Shown here in pieces: positions 3,314 to 13,969 of a stretch of DNA of 64,000 nt. Each line of letters opens with the position of its first letter. Within the stretch, counting starts at the first letter, position 1. The position numbers were made by a program, and so were the translations under genes. Under the pieces are notes generated by a model. The model was not told where the DNA came from. It saw only the letters and a program-made list of their open reading frames with translations, and did no database searches. This DNA comes from Caldifarciminota bacterium (GTDB taxonomy: Bacteria; Hydrothermota; Tepidihabitantia; B3-TA06), in NCBI GenBank assembly GCA_016934635.1, contig JAFGSK010000025.1, positions 1 through 64,000 on the forward strand, read 5' to 3'.

Positions 3314-4381
3314 CTACTTGGGGAGGGAAGTATACACCTTCTGAAAAGCCTGCTTTACATCGTCTTTCTTAACCTCATCAAGTATGGTACATCGTCCCGG
3401 GCGGGTCGATGGCGCGCGTTCCAGAACCTTCAAGAATCCGTCGAAGTCAAGCCCCAGATCCTCAGGGGAGGCAATGAGCTCATTTCTGCGAAGAAACTCG
3501 GCCTGGGCCGACCACGAGTACTCGTCCTGCAGATATGACGTTAACACCGCAAACATGGCAACCTGCTCACCGTGCAGGCTCGGGCTATCCGGATACAATT
3601 CATCGTAGCCGTGGCTTAATAAATGCTCCGAGCCGCTGCACGGACGGCTCGTTCCTGCAATCCCCATAGCTATTCCCGAAAGCACCAGACCCTCGGCAAG
3701 AACGCGTAAAAACGAGGTATCTGCGAAATCAACGCGTTTGGCATCCAACATCTCGAAAGCCGATTTGCGCGCGAGAAGTGCCGCCACGGTATCGTAATGT
3801 ACATGGGTCTTATGATACGACATCAGCCAGTCGTTGGTTGCGGAGATGTTGGATAAAAGGTCACCAACCCCGGCTTTGAGGTTCTGAATTGGGGCAGTGG
3901 TAACCGCCTCCAGATCGACGAGAACGGCAGCAGGCATGTTGACTCCAACACTTCTGGACTCTTTACGGAAACGGATTACAGCAACCGGAGAACAGATCCC
4001 GTCGTTTGAGAGAGAGGTAGGTATACTGACGACAGGTAACATCCTTCTTGCTCCGGCAAATTTAGCTATGTCAATCACCTGACCACCGCCCACACCGATG
4101 AGTACGTCGGGACGGAAATCGTCTATGAATGTTTCAATTTTCTCCACCTCAGGATAGGTGTTGTTTTCTATTTCCTCTGTGTGGATTTTTTTCAGGATAG
4201 TTGAATTTCCAAATCCGGCAGCTACCCTGTCGGAGAGATGTCGGATGTTTGACATGGTCAGGATTAATGGGCGTAAAAACATAAGGTTCGTTTCGTTCAA
4301 AAGCTTACTTGCTGCATCTAAAAGATTATCATCAATCCTGACCTGTATAGGCAAGGATACATTGCTTCCGAATATTGGCAT
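3314..4381 (-). CDS. glycerol-1-phosphate dehydrogenase family protein (AraM/EgsA-like)
   Basis: 355 residues. It carries the NAD(P)-binding motif GVGGGQVIDIAKF (about 96-108), the family motif PTSLSNDGICSP (about 121-132), and three likely zinc ligands: Asp174 in GVGDLLSN, His253 in SEHLLSH and His270 in LHGEQVA. These are hallmarks of the family that reduces dihydroxyacetone phosphate to sn-glycerol-1-phosphate, the archaeal-type glycerol backbone, also made by AraM of Bacillus. The ATG at 4381 directly follows the stop codon of the nucleotidyltransferase (no gap). It is the last gene of a three-gene operon whose other members look like a CTP-dependent activator and a CDP-alcohol transferase, so the product may be activated as CDP-glycerol. 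A related dehydroquinate-synthase-fold enzyme with another substrate is possible. Confidence 0.85.
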   Translation of the reverse strand: MPIFGSNVSLPIQVRIDDNLLDAASKLLNETNLMFLRPLILTMSNIRHLSDRVAAGFGNSTILKKIHTEEIENNTYPEVEKIETFIDDFRPDVLIGVGGGQVIDIAKFAGARRMLPVVSIPTSLSNDGICSPVAVIRFRKESRSVGVNMPAAVLVDLEAVTTAPIQNLKAGVGDLLSNISATNDWLMSYHKTHVHYDTVAALLARKSAFEMLDAKRVDFADTSFLRVLAEGLVLSGIAMGIAGTSRPCSGSEHLLSHGYDELYPDSPSLHGEQVAMFAVLTSYLQDEYSWSAQAEFLRRNELIASPEDLGLDFDGFLKVLERAPSTRPGRCTILDEVKKDDVKQAFQKVYTSLPK

Positions 4382-5107
4382 CTAGGTCTCCATTTTTTCT
4401 ATCTCCCGTGCAACCTCGGCTGCACGGGCAAGGTCTTCATGGGTATCTATCTCGATCCAGGGTAGTCCGCCTGTGCTAAGGGAGTAAAGGGGACATGAAT
4501 CAAGAATCGCGTCGATTGCGTTCTCGTACCAAACACCAGTTTGCCCTTCATCCATCATCCGGTCAATCTGTGCGAACAAGGCTTTTGAGAAATCTTTCCC
4601 AAACCGGGCCAGACCGATGTACTCGCCTGCGCTTTGCTTCACGTGAAGGGTCTTGGAAATAGCAGTTATCCTCCCATCCGGGTCGGTTATCACCCTCATC
4701 TCCTCCTCTTTAAGAGGGTTAACATCGTCCACCATGAGAACGCTTTTCCTTCGATCCTCCAGAATATCTCTGGTAAGCCCCGCAGCAAAGAGCACGTCGC
4801 TGTTGAGGAGGATGAAATCTTTCCCTTCAAGTAACTCCCGGGCAAGCCACAACGAATAGATGTTATTAGTTGATGCAAAGACTTCATTATTGATGAATCG
4901 ACAGTTCGGAACCGCCACTTTCAGCTTCTCAGCCTTGTGTCCTGAGAGGAGGATAATTTCTTCATCGGTTATCCCTGCAGCATGTAAGCTGTCAATAGCA
5001 CGGCCGATGAGTGTCCGACCTTCCACCTCCAACATTGCCTTAGGTCGATCCAGGGTCAATGGATGAAGGCGACGGCCTTCACCTGCGGCTAGGATTATTG
5101 TTTGCAT
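4382..5107 (-). CDS. nucleotidyltransferase, probable CTP:alcohol-phosphate cytidylyltransferase (COG1213-like)
   Basis: 241 residues. The N-terminus LAAGEGRRLHPLTLDRPKAM is the nucleotide-binding loop with the catalytic lysine of GT-A-fold nucleotidyltransferases. The segment STNNIYSLWLARELL and the C-terminal WIEIDTHEDL match the subfamily that includes LicC-type phosphocholine, myo-inositol-1-phosphate and 2-aminoethylphosphonate cytidylyltransferases. Sitting between a CDP-alcohol phosphatidyltransferase and a glycerol-1-phosphate dehydrogenase, it most plausibly makes a CDP-alcohol, perhaps CDP-glycerol from glycerol-1-phosphate; that substrate is inference. It overlaps the upstream gene by 13 nt and touches the downstream gene, so translation is coupled. 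The Shine-Dalgarno is weak (GAGAAG). Confidence 0.82.
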   Translation of the reverse strand: MQTIILAAGEGRRLHPLTLDRPKAMLEVEGRTLIGRAIDSLHAAGITDEEIILLSGHKAEKLKVAVPNCRFINNEVFASTNNIYSLWLARELLEGKDFILLNSDVLFAAGLTRDILEDRRKSVLMVDDVNPLKEEEMRVITDPDGRITAISKTLHVKQSAGEYIGLARFGKDFSKALFAQIDRMMDEGQTGVWYENAIDAILDSCPLYSLSTGGLPWIEIDTHEDLARAAEVAREIEKMET

Positions 5108-5778
5108 TTCTTCTCTTTGTATAACCTGGTTTTGACAACGATAACAACGATCAGATACAGTATACTAGCACCCCACAGCACAGAAATAGGGATAAACGGG
5201 TGGAGCCAAGCTAAGAGAGGTCCAATCACCAGGATCAAGAATTGTTCGTCATAACCTGTATACAACTGTCCAACCCTGCGGATAAATCTACGCTCAACAG
5301 GTACTGCGGGTATATCCCATGCACCAAAACGCGGTGGTATATGGTGCCCGACAACGTGGTTGAGGTAATGAAAGATAACGCCCGCGCCGGTTGCAATACA
5401 CCAGATAAGTCCAAGTTCACGATAAACACCCCAGGTTAATGCAACAAGAGCTATCAGCTTACGGGCTAGATCTATCCTTGGATCGAGCTTACGACCAAAT
5501 TCGGTTTGTTTGCTTGTAAGTTTTGCAAGCTTGCCGTCGGTACAGTCTAATATCCATGAGAACTGAAAAAGCAGTGCAGCCCAGATAAGAGATATACCGT
5601 CACCTTGCCAAAAGAAGTAACAGGCAGCCAATGCCGGGACAAGACTGAGTATGGTTACGACGTTCGGGTGAACAGGGGTATGAGACAAGAGTCTTGCAAG
5701 TGGAATTCCGATTGGGTCGGCAAATAGAACAGTACTCCAGGCATCGGTTTCCTTGAGGAACTTTAGTTTTTCACCCAT
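5095..5778 (-). CDS. CDP-alcohol phosphatidyltransferase family membrane protein
   Basis: 227 residues from the ATG at 5778. The family motif is complete except for one conservative change: Asp-Cys-Thr-Asp-Gly, x2, Ala-Lys (usually Ala-Arg), x8, Gly, x3, Asp, x3, Asp, which binds the metals and CDP. Several hydrophobic helices flank it. These enzymes transfer the phospho-alcohol of a CDP-alcohol to another alcohol, making phospholipids or soluble phosphodiesters. A longer reading from GTG at 5814 would translate through the promoter itself: TTGACA and TAGACT lie inside that extension, five bases before the chosen ATG. I therefore place the start at 5778 and expect a leaderless mRNA. First gene of the operon. 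Confidence 0.85.
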   Translation of the reverse strand: MGEKLKFLKETDAWSTVLFADPIGIPLARLLSHTPVHPNVVTILSLVPALAACYFFWQGDGISLIWAALLFQFSWILDCTDGKLAKLTSKQTEFGRKLDPRIDLARKLIALVALTWGVYRELGLIWCIATGAGVIFHYLNHVVGHHIPPRFGAWDIPAVPVERRFIRRVGQLYTGYDEQFLILVIGPLLAWLHPFIPISVLWGASILYLIVVIVVKTRLYKEKKCKQ

Positions 5779-5783
5779 CCATA

Positions 5784-5811
5784 AGTCTATTGATACATAG
5801 TGTTGTGTCAA
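5784..5811 (-). promoter_or_regulatory. leaderless promoter of the CDP-alcohol operon
   Basis: Minus strand TTGACA (5806-5811), a 16-bp spacer, TAGACT (5784-5789), then only five bases before the ATG at 5778. No ribosome-binding site fits between. The start of transcription should fall at or beside the start codon. Confidence 0.7.
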
Positions 5812-5846
5812 CACGTAACTTGCGGGATTTTTCTCCTAGGTTTCAC

Positions 5847-5874
5847 TTGACATTTTAACCCTCCTCACTATTAT
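5847..5874 (+). promoter_or_regulatory. promoter of the outer-membrane lipoprotein triplet
   Basis: TTGACA (5847-5852), a 16-bp spacer and TATTAT (5869-5874). It diverges from the CDP-alcohol operon promoter, the two -35 boxes being 35 bases apart. The leader carries AAAGGAGG before the ATG at 5896, so this one is not leaderless. Confidence 0.75.
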
Positions 5875-5895
5875 CATTATTAAAAGGAGGTCGCG

Positions 5896-6558
5896 ATGCG
5901 GCATTTCGCAGTGTGCGTTCGGGTGGTAATGTTGGCGGGGTTGTTAAGTGTGGGATGCGTCTCCCCCTTTTACGGCACGGCGAGGATAGAGCCCGGGTTT
6001 CATGCGGATGCAGGATTAGGTTTTTCTCGCTTTATCAACGTTGATTGCGAATGGATGCTTGATTGCATAGGCCCCAGAGCAGATATGGAATTAAGATACG
6101 GGTTTAAGAATAATTTCCAGGTAAGTTCACGTTTCGGTTTAGGATTCGGATACACTAGTGTTCCCGAGTATATTCCGGTAAGTGAAGGACCCTATCTTCA
6201 AGGCGACCTGGCATTAGGTATCCAATACGCATATCCCTTAAGAAACCATACGCCTGCGATAAGATTTGAGGCTTCCTATGCACCGGGATTGGAAATGTTT
6301 ATATTCACTCCTACGCTTTTATGGGGGATTGGTCGAAACGAAAGCGTGACCCTGGGGGTACGTCCTGAAATTTTCTCAGGGGCTGAGGGTATACTTCTTG
6401 AGGTATTTTCAACAATCCATGTCTCACCAAGGTGGTCAATCTTTCTAGGTTTAGATCTTTTTTCAACTTTTACCGAGATCGGTAACGGATACCCAATTGC
6501 CTCGCTAGGTTTAGGCTACACTTTCGGGAAATTAGGAGGAAAAGATGAAGGTTTTTAG
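5896..6558 (+). CDS. outer-membrane beta-barrel-like lipoprotein, paralogue 1
   Basis: 220 residues. A signal peptide ends at a likely lipidated Cys21 (LLSVGC), followed by the motif CVSPFYGTARIEPGFH, which recurs in the third gene of the set. The rest alternates short amphipathic glycine- and aromatic-rich strands ending in LGLGYTFGK, typical of small outer-membrane barrels. It is the first of three tandem paralogues and overlaps the second by 14 nt. AAAGGAGG stands six bases upstream of the ATG. I recognise no named family; the function may be structural or pore-forming. Calling it a lipoprotein rests on the cysteine position, because the lipobox is imperfect. Confidence 0.7.
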   Translation: MRHFAVCVRVVMLAGLLSVGCVSPFYGTARIEPGFHADAGLGFSRFINVDCEWMLDCIGPRADMELRYGFKNNFQVSSRFGLGFGYTSVPEYIPVSEGPYLQGDLALGIQYAYPLRNHTPAIRFEASYAPGLEMFIFTPTLLWGIGRNESVTLGVRPEIFSGAEGILLEVFSTIHVSPRWSIFLGLDLFSTFTEIGNGYPIASLGLGYTFGKLGGKDEGF

Positions 6559-7150
6559 ATGGATTGTCTTAGTCGTAATCTCAACAGTGATTGCGAACTG
6601 TACAGGCCTTGCACCTATCTACGACACCGCCATAACCCATGAAGGCTTGACCGTGGGCGGCGGGGTGGGCTATCACCGCTACGAGGTCGAAAGCTCATCA
6701 GGGGCAATCCACATCCACGACGGCATGGAAGGAGTCCGCCCTGATCTCGCTGCAAGCTATGCATTCACCAACTGGTTCTCAATGACCGGTCGGGTAGGCG
6801 TAATAATCGGCAAGGATATACCGCAGGGAGAGCCTGTCCAGGAGCCCTCGTTTGGTCTGGGAGTCAAGTTTTCAACTCCGTGGAAGATTTTCAACATTTC
6901 GATGAGGGTTGAACCCGACTATCCGCGCCTCGTGTCTCTTACACCAATGATCGGATTCTCCACCCGGAAGGGACACGAGATAGTCACTTTAGGTCTGCAG
7001 ACCGCATTCGGTATAGCACCTACCGGGGCATTCATTAATCTGCATCCATTGAGCGGCACTCATCTTTTTGCCGCAGTGGGGGATGGAGAAGTCTGCTTCG
7101 GTCTGGGTTACGCCTATAACTTCGGGAGGAAAGAGAGGGAGGAAAAGTGA
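6545..7150 (+). CDS. outer-membrane beta-barrel-like lipoprotein, paralogue 2
   Basis: 201 residues. The signal sequence ends at Cys19 (IANC), followed by TGLAPIYDTAITHEGL, a divergent form of the CVSPxYxTAxIEPG motif of its neighbours. Repeated glycine/aromatic strands end in CFGLGYAYNFGR, the same C-terminal strand type as the first paralogue. It starts inside the end of the first gene, with GGAGG just upstream of the ATG, and its stop overlaps the next start by 4 nt. It is the most diverged of the three by motif. No function can be assigned beyond an outer-membrane location. Confidence 0.7.
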   Translation: MKVFRWIVLVVISTVIANCTGLAPIYDTAITHEGLTVGGGVGYHRYEVESSSGAIHIHDGMEGVRPDLAASYAFTNWFSMTGRVGVIIGKDIPQGEPVQEPSFGLGVKFSTPWKIFNISMRVEPDYPRLVSLTPMIGFSTRKGHEIVTLGLQTAFGIAPTGAFINLHPLSGTHLFAAVGDGEVCFGLGYAYNFGRKEREEK

Positions 7151-7794
7151 GGTGCGAGAGACGGATTGTTTTGGTCATTATGGTCGTATGTATTGCGGCT
7201 GGAGTTATGGGCTGCGTGTCACCGATATACGAAACGGCGGAAATCGAACCTGGGTTCCATCTAACAGGAGGCCTGGGTGTATCTAGTTACGGATTTTCAG
7301 CAGATGATTTCGGATTTTATGGTGTGGGACCAAGGGTTGATATTTTATGTGGATACGGTCTTGCACGTTGGCTGGATATTTCAGCCAGGTTAGGCGTAGG
7401 GGTAGGAACTGATTTGAGTGATTTTATGCCTCTTATAGACGGAGCAGCGGGTGCAAAGTTGACATATCAATGTAAATATGTGCAACCTGTGTTTAAGTTT
7501 GAGATTTCTCCGGTTTTCTATGCTCCGTGGCAATATTTTCCGTCTTTACTTTTAGGTATTAAAGGAAGAGACAGGAATGAGGTTGCTACTTTGGGAGTCC
7601 GAGTAATATTTACAGGAGAAAGTAGTTTTGAAGACATTATGAATAATATTGATATAATGGGAATGCTGCACTTCTCAAAAAGGTACACTGTGTTTGGAGG
7701 CGTTAATATTTCAGGATCAAGAGATCATTACGGGATTCCGATTCCCATGTCAACCCTCGGTATTGCCTATCGTTTCGATCATGGTAAGGATTGA
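7147..7794 (+). CDS. outer-membrane beta-barrel-like lipoprotein, paralogue 3
   Basis: 215 residues, GTG start overlapping the previous stop (GTGA) and preceded by GGGAGG. The signal sequence ends at Cys23 (GVMGC), then CVSPIYETAEIEPGFH, close to the first paralogue. The body alternates glycine- and aromatic-rich strands and ends with LGIAYRFDHG. As with its neighbours this suggests a small lipid-anchored outer-membrane barrel. The three genes form one transcription unit from the promoter at 5847-5874 and probably arose by tandem duplication. yraN downstream has its own promoter. Confidence 0.7.
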   Translation: MRCERRIVLVIMVVCIAAGVMGCVSPIYETAEIEPGFHLTGGLGVSSYGFSADDFGFYGVGPRVDILCGYGLARWLDISARLGVGVGTDLSDFMPLIDGAAGAKLTYQCKYVQPVFKFEISPVFYAPWQYFPSLLLGIKGRDRNEVATLGVRVIFTGESSFEDIMNNIDIMGMLHFSKRYTVFGGVNISGSRDHYGIPIPMSTLGIAYRFDHGKD

Positions 7795-7824: not shown

Positions 7825-8184
7825 ATGAATCGCCAATCACTCGGTAAGCGCGGGGAAGAAGCTGCTGCGGAGTTTCTTCAGAACTCAGGCTACGGGATAA
7901 TCACCCGCAACTTCTACACCCGCTGGGGAGAACTCGATATCATCGCCCGGGACTCGGAAGAGATAGTTTTCGTCGAGGTGAGGACCAGATCCACCGCAGG
8001 CTTCATGACTCCCGGTGAGTCGGTCGACTACGCCAAGCAGGACCGGCTTCGAAATGCGGCCCAGACATGGCTGTCTGAACACTACCCTATTGAACCGCCG
8101 CCCTGCAGGTTCGATGTTATCTCTGTAATAATCAAAAAAGGTCAACCACCTGTCATCGAACACTTTACCAATGCTTTCCAGTGA
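7825..8184 (+). CDS. yraN: UPF0102 protein YraN, endonuclease-like fold
   Basis: 119 residues, standard for the family. Motifs in order: GKRGEEAAAEFL (about 7-18), NFYTRWGELDIIARD (about 30-44) and FVEVRTRS (about 50-57). The acidic and basic residues match the nuclease-like active site of the Holliday-junction resolvase-related fold. The cellular role is unsettled. It is commonly encoded near comM, as here, with only the broken kinase gene between. The mRNA appears leaderless, with the -10 box ending six bases before the ATG. Confidence 0.92.
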   Translation: MNRQSLGKRGEEAAAEFLQNSGYGIITRNFYTRWGELDIIARDSEEIVFVEVRTRSTAGFMTPGESVDYAKQDRLRNAAQTWLSEHYPIEPPPCRFDVISVIIKKGQPPVIEHFTNAFQ

Positions 8185-8185
8185 A

Positions 8186-8703
8186 ATGTGGAGGATTCTT
8201 GTGGTTGGTTCGGGCGGGGCAGGCAAGTCGATGCTTGCGCGCAAGCTCTCAAAGATACTCAGGCTTCCACTGATCAATCTGGATGCCCGTTACTGGAGAC
8301 CGGGCTGGGTCCAAACAGGTAAAGATGAGCGGAAGCAAATTGTATCTGAACTGATCAAAAGGGATCGTTGGGTAATTGACGGAAACTAAGGTGGTACCTT
8401 GGTCATGCGCTTAAAGGCCGCTGATACCGTGATCTTCCTTGACTATTCCCGTTTCTTATGCTTGTATCGGGGCCTAAGAAGGCAGCTTACCAGGGTACGC
8501 CCGTATGCGATCCCGGGCTGCCACGAAAAGATGGATAAAGAGTTTATACGATGGATCTGGAACTATCCTCGCAATTCGAGGCGTAGAGTAGAATAATGAA
8601 GATCCTCGATGAAGAGGGTAAAGGTAAATGCATCATTATCCTAAAAAAACCGAACCAGACCAGAAGGTTCACCGAAACACTAAAGGCCGTAATCCAGCCT
8701 TAA
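8186..8703 (+). pseudogene. broken P-loop kinase, DNA topology modulation protein FlaR-like
   Basis: A single gene broken at two points. The first part (from ATG 8186; an in-frame ATG also exists at 8171) has the Walker A motif GSGGAGKSMLARKL and runs to WVIDGN, where a TAA at 8387-8389 replaces the expected Tyr codon of the family motif DGNYGGT. In the same frame GGTLVMRLKAADTVIFLD follows, with the lid-like segment and WNYPRNSRRR. A stop at 8597-8599 then coincides with a frame change, and the C-terminal IILKKPNQTRRF piece resumes in another frame to the TAA at 8701-8703. Total length (about 175 codons) fits the adenylate-kinase-like FlaR family. Two lesions argue for a real pseudogene rather than one base-call error. 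Confidence 0.8.
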
Positions 8704-8719
8704 AAAATCAAGATTAAAC

Positions 8720-8747
8720 TTGCAAATCATTAAAAAATCAGTATATT
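8720..8747 (+). promoter_or_regulatory. promoter of comM
   Basis: TTGCAA (8720-8725), a 16-bp spacer and TATATT (8742-8747) in an AT-rich stretch. The leader would be only about 12 nt, with AGGA at its very beginning and the ATG at 8766. Confidence 0.55.
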
Positions 8748-8765
8748 CAGTTAGGATAGAAACAT

Positions 8766-10658: not shown

Positions 10659-11420
10659 ATGAACGAATTTACTCAAAGATTAAGGCTCATAATTTTCCCA
10701 TACCTTAAAAGTGTATTGGATCACTTGAAGCGGAAATTGTCTATTGATTCTTACCAGAAAGTGGCGTGGGCTGAATATTGGGAAGACCATTTAAAAAAAA
10801 CGAAAGATTATTTCCTTGAATTAAAGAAGAACCTACAGGATCTTTTCGAAGCACTTAGCATCAGGGAGTTACCGGAAAAGTTATCCTCCGAAGAAGGACC
10901 TTTTTTTGAAATTAGTTATATTGAGTTCTTTAGGGGAGACTTAGAACTTGCCATTAGATTGATTCGGAATTACTTAGAAGAGCTTACAGTAAAGGCAAAG
11001 GCAGACATCGCTAAAGTTTTTATTAGTCATGGGCCACCAACTTCCGTACTTGATAGAGTTTTTAAGTTTGTAAGAGATGACCTTGGTTTAGAACCAATTG
11101 TGGCGGAATGGACAGCCTCCGAAGGGCGCGGAATTCGACCAGATGCTGAGAAGAAGATACAAGAATCACACTGCGCGATTATTCTAGCTGAGAAAGACCC
11201 TGATGATCCGAAGGGGAAAAACCCTCGAGGAAACGTACTCATCGAATCGGAACACGCAAAGCTGATGTTAAAAGATAAACTCATCTGGCTAAAAGAAGAA
11301 GGGGTAGAATGGCCTTCCATGAATCGTGCGATAATCTGGGAGAGTTTCACACAAGACTGTTTGGAAAAAGCATTTGCCAAAATTGTAAGGGAGTTAAGAG
11401 CTTTCGATCTCTTAAGGTAG
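10659..11420 (+). CDS. TIR-like domain protein with helical N-terminus
   Basis: 253 residues. Residues 1-115 are charged and helical with no domain I recognise. From about 117 a TIR-like alpha/beta domain begins with AKVFISHGPP. It continues through the second strand GLEPIVAEW, the phosphate-loop-like segment EGRGIRPDAEKKIQ, the core strand SHCAIILAEKD and the helix NVLIESEHAKLM. Glu196 or Glu198 there sits where TIR NADases keep their catalytic glutamate. The layout resembles the predicted nucleotide-binding TIR-like family (PF10137) found in anti-phage systems. It is four bases upstream of a HEPN-like gene and shares its promoter. An abortive-infection role is inference. The locus is more AT-rich than its neighbours and flanked by palindrome clusters, suggesting transfer. 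Confidence 0.68.
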   Translation: MNEFTQRLRLIIFPYLKSVLDHLKRKLSIDSYQKVAWAEYWEDHLKKTKDYFLELKKNLQDLFEALSIRELPEKLSSEEGPFFEISYIEFFRGDLELAIRLIRNYLEELTVKAKADIAKVFISHGPPTSVLDRVFKFVRDDLGLEPIVAEWTASEGRGIRPDAEKKIQESHCAIILAEKDPDDPKGKNPRGNVLIESEHAKLMLKDKLIWLKEEGVEWPSMNRAIIWESFTQDCLEKAFAKIVRELRAFDLLR

Positions 11421-11424
11421 AATT

Positions 11425-12231
11425 ATGATCATTTTCCCTGAGTTTAATCGTAAATATCGGGAAGTACTCGGTCGCCTTATTAAAGGGGAGAAAATTGAGA
11501 GTGTCGTAGGGATTGCCGCACTAAATGATTATTTGATCAAAAGAATGCAGGATTATACAGTTATTGAACATCTGCCTAAGTCTAAACCAAAGGAAAAAGG
11601 TGAAGAGTATTGTCAGAGATGGATGAAGAACTTTGACGAAAGACAAAAGCTGGTAATTGAGTTCATTGCTGCGTGGCAATGCCAAATTCTATTTACATTA
11701 TTGAAAGTATACCAAGCAGGTCTGCTCTTGGGTAATCCAATACCTGAAGAAATGAGGCTGAAATGCAATATGCAAAATGAAACAGAATGGTATGAATTGC
11801 TCCAATCATTTGTCGTTAGTGAAATTTATATTTTCCAAAACAGATTATTTGCCTGGTTTGGTTTATTCAAAAATGCTGTGAAAAAATTTGAAGGGTCACC
11901 AAAATTAATAACTCAAATTGATGAAGCTACTGCCTCTATACGAAAGGAAACAGACAATTTAATCAAACTCAGACACGTGTACGTTCATCCTCATTCAGAT
12001 AGTAAATTCGAAAGGAAGCTTAGGCTGTGGAATTTACGAAAGGTAATACTTGAAAATGTACCCGGAGGAGAAAAAAAATTGGGAGCTTCCTTAAGGAAAG
12101 TGAATACCGAAATCAAAACTTCTGCCCCCAAAGTCGCTCTAATTGTTAAACGTAAACTTCTTTCATTACTCAATCGATATTCAGGTCTTATTCAGGATGC
12201 CATAAAATTTATAGACCCAGGGTATAAATAG
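11425..12231 (+). CDS. HEPN-like helical protein, partner of the TIR-like gene
   Basis: 268 residues, almost entirely helical. Near residue 183 it has Arg-His-Val-Tyr-Val-His-Pro-His, an RX4H pattern like the catalytic motif of HEPN ribonucleases (Arg183, His188, plus His190). It is clearly homologous to the protein at 15078-15902: both share YQAGxLL, a (T/S)EWY block followed by a (S)EIYxF helix, and equivalent spacing to the RH motif. In that paralogue both histidines are tyrosine. AAGG precedes the ATG at 11425, and the gene follows the TIR-like stop by four bases. I know no named family with this architecture. HEPN membership is a motif-level guess and could be wrong. Confidence 0.55.
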   Translation: MIIFPEFNRKYREVLGRLIKGEKIESVVGIAALNDYLIKRMQDYTVIEHLPKSKPKEKGEEYCQRWMKNFDERQKLVIEFIAAWQCQILFTLLKVYQAGLLLGNPIPEEMRLKCNMQNETEWYELLQSFVVSEIYIFQNRLFAWFGLFKNAVKKFEGSPKLITQIDEATASIRKETDNLIKLRHVYVHPHSDSKFERKLRLWNLRKVILENVPGGEKKLGASLRKVNTEIKTSAPKVALIVKRKLLSLLNRYSGLIQDAIKFIDPGYK

Positions 12232-12739
12232 ACCGAAGGGAGGTGTAGGGACAAACACTCTTGTTTGTCCGGACAGGCTGGAGAGCCTGTCCTACACGCT
12301 AAATCTGTGTTAATCAGTGAAATCTGTGGTTTCAAAAGGGGTACGCTGCGACCTGCGCCCGCTCGATGGAGGCAACTCCGTCTTAATGCTCCTTTTTGCG
12401 TAGAGGACACGCAAAAAGATCGCAGGCGGCCTGTGGCCGCAGCTCGTTGGAGGCAACTGCGTCGCCTTCACTCGCTGCGACCTGCGCCCGCAGCTCGTGT
12501 GCCGAACAGGTTCTCTAACCTGTTCAATCAACGAGAATGGACACCCTGAGAGGGTGTCCTCCGTGGTATGCAGTCCGTAGGGGGCGACGTTCGCAACTTG
12601 GGTTGCGCGCTACGCGTTAGGTCGGCTCGATTACAAATCATAACGGGCGCACCTGAAGGTACGCCCCTACGGGGTTTTACTATGGAGTGCAACAACCGTG
12701 TTGTTGCGGCGATGACGTGGTCATCGCACTCCAAATCAG
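12232..12739. repeat. cluster of perfect palindromes between the HEPN-like gene and the MFS gene
   Basis: About 500 bases without a credible gene. (a) 12243-12297: an outer stem GTGTAGG/CCTACAC encloses two hairpins, GGACAAACA/TGTTTGTCC (loop CTCT) and GGACAGGCT/AGCCTGTCC (loop GGAG). (b) 12504-12525: GAACAGGTT/AACCTGTTC, loop CTCT. (c) 12539-12559: GGACACCCT/AGGGTGTCC, loop GAG. (d) 12592-12607: CGCAAC/GTTGCG. (e) 12645-12666: ten-base arms with one mismatch. (f) 12683-12733: outer stem TGGAGT/ACTCCA enclosing GCAACAAC/GTTGTTGC and GCGATGAC/GTCATCGC, each with a 3-nt loop. Elements (a) and (f) share a three-way-junction shape but no sequence. Confidence 0.85.
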
Positions 12740-12767
12740 TTGACGCTTGCCCAACCGGAAATATAAT
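12740..12767 (+). promoter_or_regulatory. leaderless promoter of the MFS gene
   Basis: TTGACG (12740-12745), a 16-bp spacer and perfect TATAAT (12762-12767), then five bases and the GTG start at 12773. No Shine-Dalgarno. It begins seven bases after palindrome element (f). Confidence 0.7.
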
Positions 12768-12772
12768 GAAGC

Positions 12773-13969
12773 GTGAATCCAACTCAGGCATCTGAGGAAA
12801 CGCCCCGAACCCCGGGCGGGCGGCGAAACCTCATCCTTTTGAGTTTCGTTAGCTTGTTTAACGATATCTCCACCGAGATGATATATCCCCTGGTGCCCGG
12901 GTTTCTGCGTTCCCTCGGCGCGACCAACACCCTGGTCGGCGTAATCGAAGGGATAGCCGAGGCCACCGCCTCGCTCGTCAAGTCGGTTTTCGGCTGGTTT
13001 TCCGACCGGGTAAAGCGCCGCAAGCCGTTCGTTATTGCAGGCTATGCGCTTTCCGCAGTGTCCAAGCCGTTGCTTGCCGCCGCCGGGCGCTGGGGCGTGG
13101 TTCTGGGGCTGCGGTTTACCGAACGCACAGGAAAAGGCATCCGCACACCCGCACGTGACGCTTTGCTGTCTCAGTCGGTTTCAGAAAGAAGGCGCGGTCT
13201 GGGCTTCGGGTTTCACCGGGCGATGGACAGCCTGGGCGCTGCATGCGGGCCGCTCCTGGCGATGCTTATACTTTACCTTACCGACAACAACGTACGATTG
13301 GTTTTCCTTTCCTCCGTGGTTCCAGCACTCATTGCGGTATCACTCATCTTCTTCGTACGAGAGCTAAGGACTCTCAAGGATATGGTTGCCCAGGCAAAGA
13401 AAACCGGATCCCTGGGCCGGGACTTCATATGGTTCGCCGGGATCATGGTCGTCTTCACCCTCGGCAACTCGTCCAACGCATTCCTTCTGCTGCGTGCCCA
13501 GGACGCGGGCGTGGCCCAGGGAATGGTTCCTCTGCTCTGGGTGGTTTACAGTCTGGTTGGATCCCTGACCAGCCCGCTTTTCGGCGCGCTTTCAGACCGT
13601 ATCGGCCGCCGGTGGACGATCTTCGGCACATTCTTCGTGTATTCGGCGGTCTATTTCCTTTTCGGCAGATTCTCGACAAGCAGTGCCATGTGGCTACTTT
13701 TCGCGGGTTACGGCCTGTATCTCGGTTCCTCACAAGGGACATTCCGCGCGTTCATAGCCGACCTCGTTCCTGCGGAGCGCCGCGCCACCGCTTACGGGCT
13801 TTTCGAAACCCTTATCGGTCTCGCGCTCCTGCCTGCAAGCCTGCTCTTCGGTTTCTTATGGGACACGTTCTCGGTCCAGGTTGCGTTCAACGTCGGTGCA
13901 GGCTTTTCTCTGGTTGCAGCGTCGCTTTTTCTCTTCACGCAAATCATTTCGAGGCATCAGAGATCGTAG
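12773..13969 (+). CDS. major facilitator superfamily transporter
   Basis: 398 residues with about twelve hydrophobic helices. The conserved loop between helices 2 and 3 appears as GWFSDRVKRRKP, and its repeat in the second half as GALSDRIGRRWT. The N-terminus LLSFVSLFNDISTEMIYPLVPGFL and the segment ERTGKGIRTPARDALL are typical of a widespread bacterial MFS subfamily with no assigned substrate. The start is a GTG five bases after a perfect -10 box, so the mRNA looks leaderless. It is probably monocistronic, between two palindrome clusters. Confidence 0.88.
   Translation: MNPTQASEETPRTPGGRRNLILLSFVSLFNDISTEMIYPLVPGFLRSLGATNTLVGVIEGIAEATASLVKSVFGWFSDRVKRRKPFVIAGYALSAVSKPLLAAAGRWGVVLGLRFTERTGKGIRTPARDALLSQSVSERRRGLGFGFHRAMDSLGAACGPLLAMLILYLTDNNVRLVFLSSVVPALIAVSLIFFVRELRTLKDMVAQAKKTGSLGRDFIWFAGIMVVFTLGNSSNAFLLLRAQDAGVAQGMVPLLWVVYSLVGSLTSPLFGALSDRIGRRWTIFGTFFVYSAVYFLFGRFSTSSAMWLLFAGYGLYLGSSQGTFRAFIADLVPAERRATAYGLFETLIGLALLPASLLFGFLWDTFSVQVAFNVGAGFSLVAASLFLFTQIISRHQRS

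Follow-up and report, generated by a model that had tools for sequence, protein, structure and literature searches.

The DNA analysed here, referred to as the window, is a 64,000 nt stretch of contig JAFGSK010000025.1, from a 3.33 Mb genome (90.7% complete, G000 below) of the phylum Caldifarciminota (candidate division WOR-3). Three touching genes lie on its minus strand. The first (5095–5778) encodes a CDP-alcohol phosphotransferase of 227 aa (PT; PF01066, 51 bits against a cut-off of 22) that is predicted to be a membrane protein. It overlaps by 13 nt the gene for a LicC/PntC-type cytidylyltransferase of 241 aa (CT, 4382–5107; PF12804/PF00483), which is followed with no gap by the gene for a 355 aa glycerol-1-phosphate dehydrogenase-like protein of the EgsA/AraM family (DH, 3314–4381; PF13685, 96 bits; PF00465, 57 bits). 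The mechanical open reading frame (ORF) of PT opens at a GTG at 5814; the ATG at 5778 is preferred because the N-termini of relatives favour it. From the ORF map and sequence, a short intergenic region (5779–5895) separates PT from a divergent outer-membrane-like gene at 5896. Between 2700 and 6000, a promoter search gave 6 matches against a shuffle mean of 4.2, which is no clear excess. An initial annotation had described three overlapping or touching genes of these families at this place, and the ORF map and the Pfam matches above cut-off agree with it on both counts.

The class was surveyed in 61 genomes, consisting of the window's own and 60 relatives. The two nearest families are that of the window (f1, 8 members) and a second with a single member, an order-mate (f2, G008). 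DH was found in 30 of the 61 genomes, including seven of the eight f1 members (all except G002) and the f2 member, and its identity was 67–76% in near relatives and about 43% in the second family. All eight f1/f2 genomes with DH are consistent with the order PT-CT-DH, which is whole in five (the window, G001, G003, G005 and G006) and cut by contig ends in three: the G007 contig starts inside PT, while G004 and G008 each have matching parts of the array at two contig ends. The G008 run reads ileS-PT-CT, then, after the contig break, CT-DH-PASTA-INO1-tmk-ctpA. Retention of the order over both of these levels of identity argues against a chance arrangement. The three genes form a real, conserved operon, in their order and conservation as in the protein families and catalytic residues of their products, and no GGGPS match accompanies them.

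GGGPS (PF01884), the enzyme that would draw glycerol-1-phosphate into ether lipids, was detected in 27 of the 61 genomes, and only in families f3, f4 and f7. It was present in every one of the 22 DH-bearing genomes outside f1/f2, and in five genomes (53–88% complete) it occurred without a DH match. The nine f1/f2 genomes, G000 among them, gave no GGGPS/PcrB match, with positive controls, in line with the earlier remark that no prenyl-glyceryl synthase is encoded here. Given this distribution (0 of 9 in f1/f2, 22 of 22 elsewhere with DH), CT is left as the sole specific consumer of sn-glycerol-1-phosphate (G1P) found in f1/f2. G000 also carries GpsA, a PgsA-like gene and a PIP-synthase-like gene, and so probably encodes ordinary lipid synthesis based on glycerol-3-phosphate (G3P); with GpsA and the PgsA-like gene present, the operon is not the G3P supply. 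As a separate observation, the co-occurrence of a G1P dehydrogenase-like gene and GGGPS in 22 of the 61 genomes, in f3, f4 and f7, suggests that WOR-3 may have genes for ether lipids of the archaeal type.

Genomes were also scanned more widely with the DH alignment, and the best 80 loci comprised 27 bacterial and 53 archaeal ones by record title. A CT (at least 75 bits, within 3 kb) lay beside DH in 11 of the 27 bacterial loci (L067, L069, L070, L071, L073, L074, L076, L077, L079, L080 and L102, of which L079 and L102 are GC-rich with unsure ORF ends) and in none of the 53 archaeal loci. The contig of L078 starts inside DH; it is a miss in this count, and is labelled CT-linked in the residue comparison, tree and topology tests below because its DH-PT arrangement matches that of L067. 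Seven plasmid records carry DH, and in three of them CT adjoins it (two Streptomyces, one Nonomuraea); five of the seven were examined (H16, H17, H18, H19 and H22), the other two being from Nitratidesulfovibrio. In one Nitratidesulfovibrio record and a Cytobacillus record DH was present and CT was not found in the stretch read. CT matched 36 plasmid records, four of which were examined (H1, H12, H13 and H15). The phyla with a CT-DH pair are Caldifarciminota, Kerfeldiibacteriota, Bacillota, Bacteroidota, Chloroflexota and Actinomycetota.

The surroundings of several of these genes suggest a link to glycerol phosphate. In Arenibacter, CT, a HAD phosphatase, DH and a flippase-like gene stand together with a TarF-like transferase (NF041712, 110 bits, below the cut-off of 550). 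In Marinithermofilum, Marininema and Melghirimyces, PT flanks CT-DH on both sides, with ABC exporter genes in between in the first two, and the Marinithermofilum ATPase is TagH-like (240 bits to a teichoic-acid exporter model, below the cut-off of 538). The Streptomyces fungicidicus cluster runs DUF5941 (with a PT-like domain), CT, DH, PT, glycosyltransferase, ABC permease and ABC ATPase, and adjoins hopanoid genes. Pseudoalteromonas has a PF04464 CDP-glycerol glycerophosphotransferase (51 bits, cut-off 22), then an HxGH-type nucleotidyltransferase, non-homologous to CT, that abuts DH. Some further features of such loci were observed. Genes for HAD-type phosphatases are repeatedly found next to G1P dehydrogenase-like genes, whether or not CT is there (L069, L074, L094, L119 and others). 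The Kerfeldbacteria locus L067 has an additional CT-like gene and an additional PT-like gene (8065–8748 and 12257–12943) a few kb from its CT-DH-PT array. On the Nitratidesulfovibrio plasmid L195, a few genes separate a G1P dehydrogenase-like gene (5983–7032) from export genes of type III secretion, and CT was not found in the stretch read.

The best NCBIfam model for DH is glycerol-1-phosphate dehydrogenase (247 bits), and its best PDB relatives by sequence are 3ce9, named a glycerol dehydrogenase, and the G1P dehydrogenases 5fb3 and 4rgq. Residues D104, K107, T122, D127, S144, D174, D184, W185, R246, H253, H257, H270 and T332 are shared by every one of the 53 archaeal and 19 CT-linked loci compared. 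Three of them, D174, H253 and H270, which we take to be the metal ligands of the iron-containing alcohol dehydrogenase family, are identical in 13 class loci as well. The initial annotation had seen zinc ligands and motifs of glycerol-1-phosphate dehydrogenase in this protein, and the core residues do match those of every archaeal locus compared. The residue set strongly suggests that the substrate of DH is dihydroxyacetone phosphate and that its product is G1P.

The PDB sequences nearest to CT are PntC-AEPT and LicC. Its AlphaFold model (pLDDT 96.0) gave the same two at the top of the Foldseek list (PntC, E 4.8e-21; LicC, 3.8e-18), with the inositol-1-phosphate cytidylyltransferase of T. maritima at rank 13. 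Residues R12, K22 and D103 are invariant in 16 aligned rows and were matched by eye to R16, K26 and D112 of IMPCT, which are critical according to the accessible part of the paper on CpgD (PMC12275187). By this model, CT has the fold and catalytic residues of a LicC/PntC-type (COG1213) cytidylyltransferase. In a tree of 30 rows, 17 DH-linked CTs were separated by a 100/99 branch from 12 fusion-type (IPCT-DIPPS-like) CT domains of the phylum; duplicates and CT domains shorter than 180 aa were left out, which removed the split CTs of G004 and G008.

PT matches the CDP-alcohol phosphotransferase motif DxxDGxxA(R/K)...GxxxDxxxD with DCTDGKLAK...G...D...D, and D78, D81, G82, A85, G95, D99 and D103 are invariant in 12 aligned rows. 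The nearest solved folds to its AlphaFold model (pLDDT 90.8) are AF2299, PIP synthases and IPCT-DIPPS (E 1.5e-5 to 8e-4), whereas the matches to PgsP-type phosphatidylglycerol phosphate synthase (0.33) and to cholinephosphotransferase (0.6) are much poorer. PT was also sought, at a threshold of 1e-12, in 120 genomes drawn from the phylum, and matched in 18. Six of these are f1/f2 genomes with identities of at least 45%; the other twelve matches are weaker, and nine of them are in long frames (435–478 aa) of the fusion type. The remaining three, the short stand-alone PTs of G093, G118 and G122, lie beside genes resembling glycosyltransferases and chain-length proteins, as judged by eye (two were scanned, and the Wzz match was below cut-off). 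Within f1, PT is immediately preceded, on its own strand, by a glycosyltransferase-like gene in those four g3 genomes in which this side is visible (G003, G004, G005 and G006; the two scanned match PF00534). The G007 contig begins inside PT, and in the window and G001 the divergent outer-membrane-like gene takes this place. These g3 and stand-alone contexts lean towards a lipid or glycan acceptor, and are weakly in favour of a membrane lipid or glycan over a soluble solute.

The outer-membrane-like genes show a pattern of their own. Paralogues occur in tandem in the window (5896–7794), L031 (2618–4560), L150 (914–2339) and L151 (1–1828). They adjoin PT-CT-DH in the window and G001, and an IPCT/DIPPS-like fusion in G003 and G006. 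The gene yraN is near them in the window, G001 and G006, with different phosphodiester genes at a similar place. Further along the window (10659–11420) is a gene for a CAP12/Pycsar-type TIR domain protein (PF10137, 33 bits), followed by an unassigned gene at 11425–12231; the two may be a defence pair.

We favour, with moderate confidence, a reading of the operon as a three-step pathway to CDP-1-glycerol and onward transfer of glycerol-1-phosphate to an acceptor, most likely a lipid or glycan. DH would reduce dihydroxyacetone phosphate to G1P, CT would convert G1P and CTP to CDP-sn-1-glycerol and pyrophosphate, and PT, in the membrane, would pass the sn-glycerol-1-phosphoryl group from CDP-1-glycerol to an acceptor hydroxyl and free CMP. 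The acceptor would most probably be a membrane lipid, a glycolipid or a lipid-linked glycan. The case for G1P as the CT substrate is carried by the recurrent pairing with DH, and gene context and homology together give a good argument that a bacterium makes CDP-1-glycerol. Such a product was suggested in the initial annotation, together with a headgroup of archaeal glycerol stereochemistry. The first part gains from the archaeal residues of DH, the lack of a GGGPS match, the pairing in six phyla and the CDP-glycerol transferases near some pairs; the second would not in itself be exotic. According to the accessible text of PMC7086022, the free glycerol phosphate of phosphatidylglycerol and lipoteichoic acid units is sn-glycerol-1-phosphate, whereas the CDP-glycerol of wall teichoic acid is sn-3. 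Handedness alone is therefore unremarkable, and it is the route through CDP-1-glycerol that would be new. With diacylglycerol as acceptor, a Kennedy-type route would yield phosphatidylglycerol with its natural, ordinary headgroup. A broader version, in which at least six bacterial phyla make CDP-sn-1-glycerol, a mirror image of the usual precursor of teichoic acid, via a G1P dehydrogenase of archaeal type, their PTs build glycerol-1-phosphate headgroups or polymers, and WOR-3 has a stand-alone Kennedy-type route of phosphatidylglycerol handedness, is put forward tentatively, at somewhat less than even odds.

Several results weigh against this pathway. The DH score of 247 bits is below the NCBIfam equivalog cut-off of 413 (PRK00843), as are those of two bacterial relatives (242 and 229 bits), and the protein is called G1P dehydrogenase-like for this reason. 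The operon in the window has no glycosyltransferase or exporter gene. CT and DH were not found in the stretches read around the PTs of G093, G118 and G122. The Pseudoalteromonas nucleotidyltransferase is ambiguous, since its scores for heptose adenylyltransferase (80.5 bits) and glycerol-3-phosphate cytidylyltransferase (79.5 bits) are nearly equal. CpgD, likened to inositol-1-phosphate cytidylyltransferase and of the same broad fold as CT, acts on phosphoglycerate, and no product was formed from glycerol-1-phosphate, as stated in the accessible part of its description (PMC12275187).

Two phylogenetic results belong on this side too. The DH tree was drawn from 101 candidates (the window, 20 class loci and 80 named loci), of which 70 rows were used, 29 of the 53 archaeal rows and two duplicates (L075 and L081) being left out. 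One branch (100/97) splits archaeal from CT-linked DHs, rows outside both groups being left out of the count. The window DH groups with f1 at 100/100 and, on a long branch, with Arenibacter at 96/80, while a separate clade (98/89) contains the class DHs associated with GGGPS. A single clade of all CT-linked DHs was rejected by the approximately unbiased (AU) test (p = 8e-10). The deep joins are not firm, because the AU tests leave f1+f2 (p = 0.27) and, barely, f1+f2+class (p = 0.051) unrejected. With these values, and p = 0.088 for f1+class, a horizontal gain of the f1 DH is not claimed. An enlarged CT tree, with five of the 30 rows removed and seven added (four CTs without DH and three actinobacterial DH-linked ones), did not recover the DH-linked CTs as one clade (4 changes; AU p = 0.031). 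A dedicated G1P-type CT clade, possible when fusion-type CTs alone are compared, is weakened by the four CTs without DH. One of these, from Prevotella, is 33% identical (177 bits), comparable to many DH-linked CTs, and stands beside genes that by eye are LicD-like and aminotransferase-like; the others are from Roseomonas, Mesorhizobium and Pseudomonas. CT phylogeny alone therefore gives no substrate.

PT might instead make a soluble phosphodiester solute, as in some heat-loving archaea, by joining CDP-1-glycerol to inositol-1-phosphate (glycerophosphoinositol) or to glycerol phosphate (diglycerol phosphate). PIP synthases and IPCT-DIPPS are among the nearest solved folds of PT, and an inositol-phosphate synthase gene (INO1) was found by protein query in 58 of the 61 genomes, G000 included; the Pfam model PF07994 gave 0 of 61, a false negative of the model, INO1 being visible in G006. 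In G008 the operon is followed by the PASTA gene and then INO1, and the IPCT/DIPPS-like fusion adjoins INO1 in G003 and G006. The parts of PMC8262930 available record a G1P-preferring cytidylyltransferase (GCT) activity in A. fulgidus, from an as yet unidentified enzyme, and name CDP-1-Gro in connection with archaeal glycerophosphoinositol. The PT fold and the class-wide INO1 thus leave room for a soluble inositol phosphodiester. However, because INO1 is class-wide it does not single out glycerophosphoinositol, and its place near CT-DH in G008 may be incidental, since an INO1-tmk-ctpA run recurs in the f1/f2 contigs read. Four g3 genomes hold both the fusion and the PT-CT-DH operon, CT falls outside the fusion clade, PT relatives elsewhere are in surface-polymer-type clusters, and in g3 a glycosyltransferase gene precedes PT. 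We regard a soluble solute as unlikely.

A change of substrate is about as improbable. CT would activate another small alcohol phosphate (ethanolamine, choline, aminoethylphosphonate or another polyol), PT would use it for an ordinary Kennedy-type or phosphonolipid headgroup, and DH would reduce another phosphorylated ketone feeding the same product. The nearest folds of CT (PntC and LicC), its relatives that lack DH and lie beside a LicD-like gene or CDP-alcohol transferases, and the DH score below the equivalog cut-off would all fit. Against this, DH has the archaeal residue set and also pairs with an unrelated type of nucleotidyltransferase, and PEP mutase was above cut-off in none of 21 genomes (the window's own being about 91% complete), with control genomes likewise giving none above cut-off. 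A 109-bit PEP mutase match in G000 is methylisocitrate-lyase-like by motif, in our judgement, and a phosphonolipid pathway was set aside on the PEP mutase result. That G1P enters PlsY and PlsC to give heterochiral lipids, with CT and PT as mere neighbours acting on G3P or another substrate, is very improbable: both enzymes accept either stereo-form of glycerol phosphate according to the available text of PMC13400652, but DH abuts CT without a gap, the order is kept over two families, and the DH-CT pairing occurs in five other phyla.

The preferred pathway to CDP-1-glycerol bears on a donor thought to be missing from bacteria. In the text available of a 2021 paper on enantiopure CDP-glycerol (PMC8262930), CDP-1-Gro is considered likely absent from bacteria, with known bacterial Gro1P apparently coming from other precursors, which makes the prediction both testable and useful. 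A literature search that covered few subscription papers, and not the wording 'CDP-1-Gro', returned no mention of a glycerol-1-phosphate cytidylyltransferase or CDP-1-glycerol among the papers listed; one paper mentioned CDP-glycerol as well as glycerol-1-phosphate dehydrogenase. The operon and its relatives name concrete candidate genes for this donor, and would explain what G1P dehydrogenase does in bacteria that lack GGGPS. Because named strains of Streptomyces and Thermoactinomycetaceae are among the relatives, it should be possible to test the idea without recourse to the host itself, which is uncultured.

Known systems share parts of this arrangement. The EgsA/AraM and GGGPS (PcrB) ether lipid route has the same G1P-forming enzyme family, and sister families of the class hold both enzymes, whereas GGGPS is matched in none of the nine genomes made up of the window's, its family and the order-mate. 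EgsA/AraM is listed in 14 of 44 bacterial phyla in the part of PMC5059525 available, and the main text of PMC7852524, as far as accessible, covers FCB bacteria and ether lipids and does not contain 'WOR-3'. IPCT-DIPPS (4mnd) likewise combines a cytidylyltransferase with a CDP-alcohol phosphotransferase to form a phosphodiester from a soluble phosphate. Here, however, the two are separate genes joined by a G1P dehydrogenase-like gene, CT is outside the fusion clade (100/99) and the fusions exist separately in sister genomes, so that the comparison with di-myo-inositol phosphate synthesis made in the initial annotation fits the kinds of enzyme and not the lineage of CT. The PntC and LicC headgroup cytidylyltransferases are the nearest to CT in fold and sequence, but CT has neither a phosphonate aminotransferase nor LicD as its partner, which here is a G1P dehydrogenase-like gene. 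A Streptomyces region with araM, tagG, tagH, a CDP-alcohol transferase and a sugar-phosphate nucleotidyltransferase apparently has the same kinds of gene as the S. fungicidicus cluster (not matched one by one); it is filed as teichoic acid synteny, with no CDP-1-glycerol proposed in the accessible text (PMC13118837). An HxGH glycerol-phosphate cytidylyltransferase and PF04464 were absent from the five window proteins scanned, a genome-wide search not having been made. The wall teichoic acid system TagD/TagF also uses a CDP-glycerol donor, and in relatives of the operon CT-DH or DH lies near TarF-, PF04464- or TagH-like genes; here the enantiomer is expected to be sn-1, the cytidylyltransferase belongs to another family, and a CDP-alcohol phosphotransferase takes the place of PF04464.

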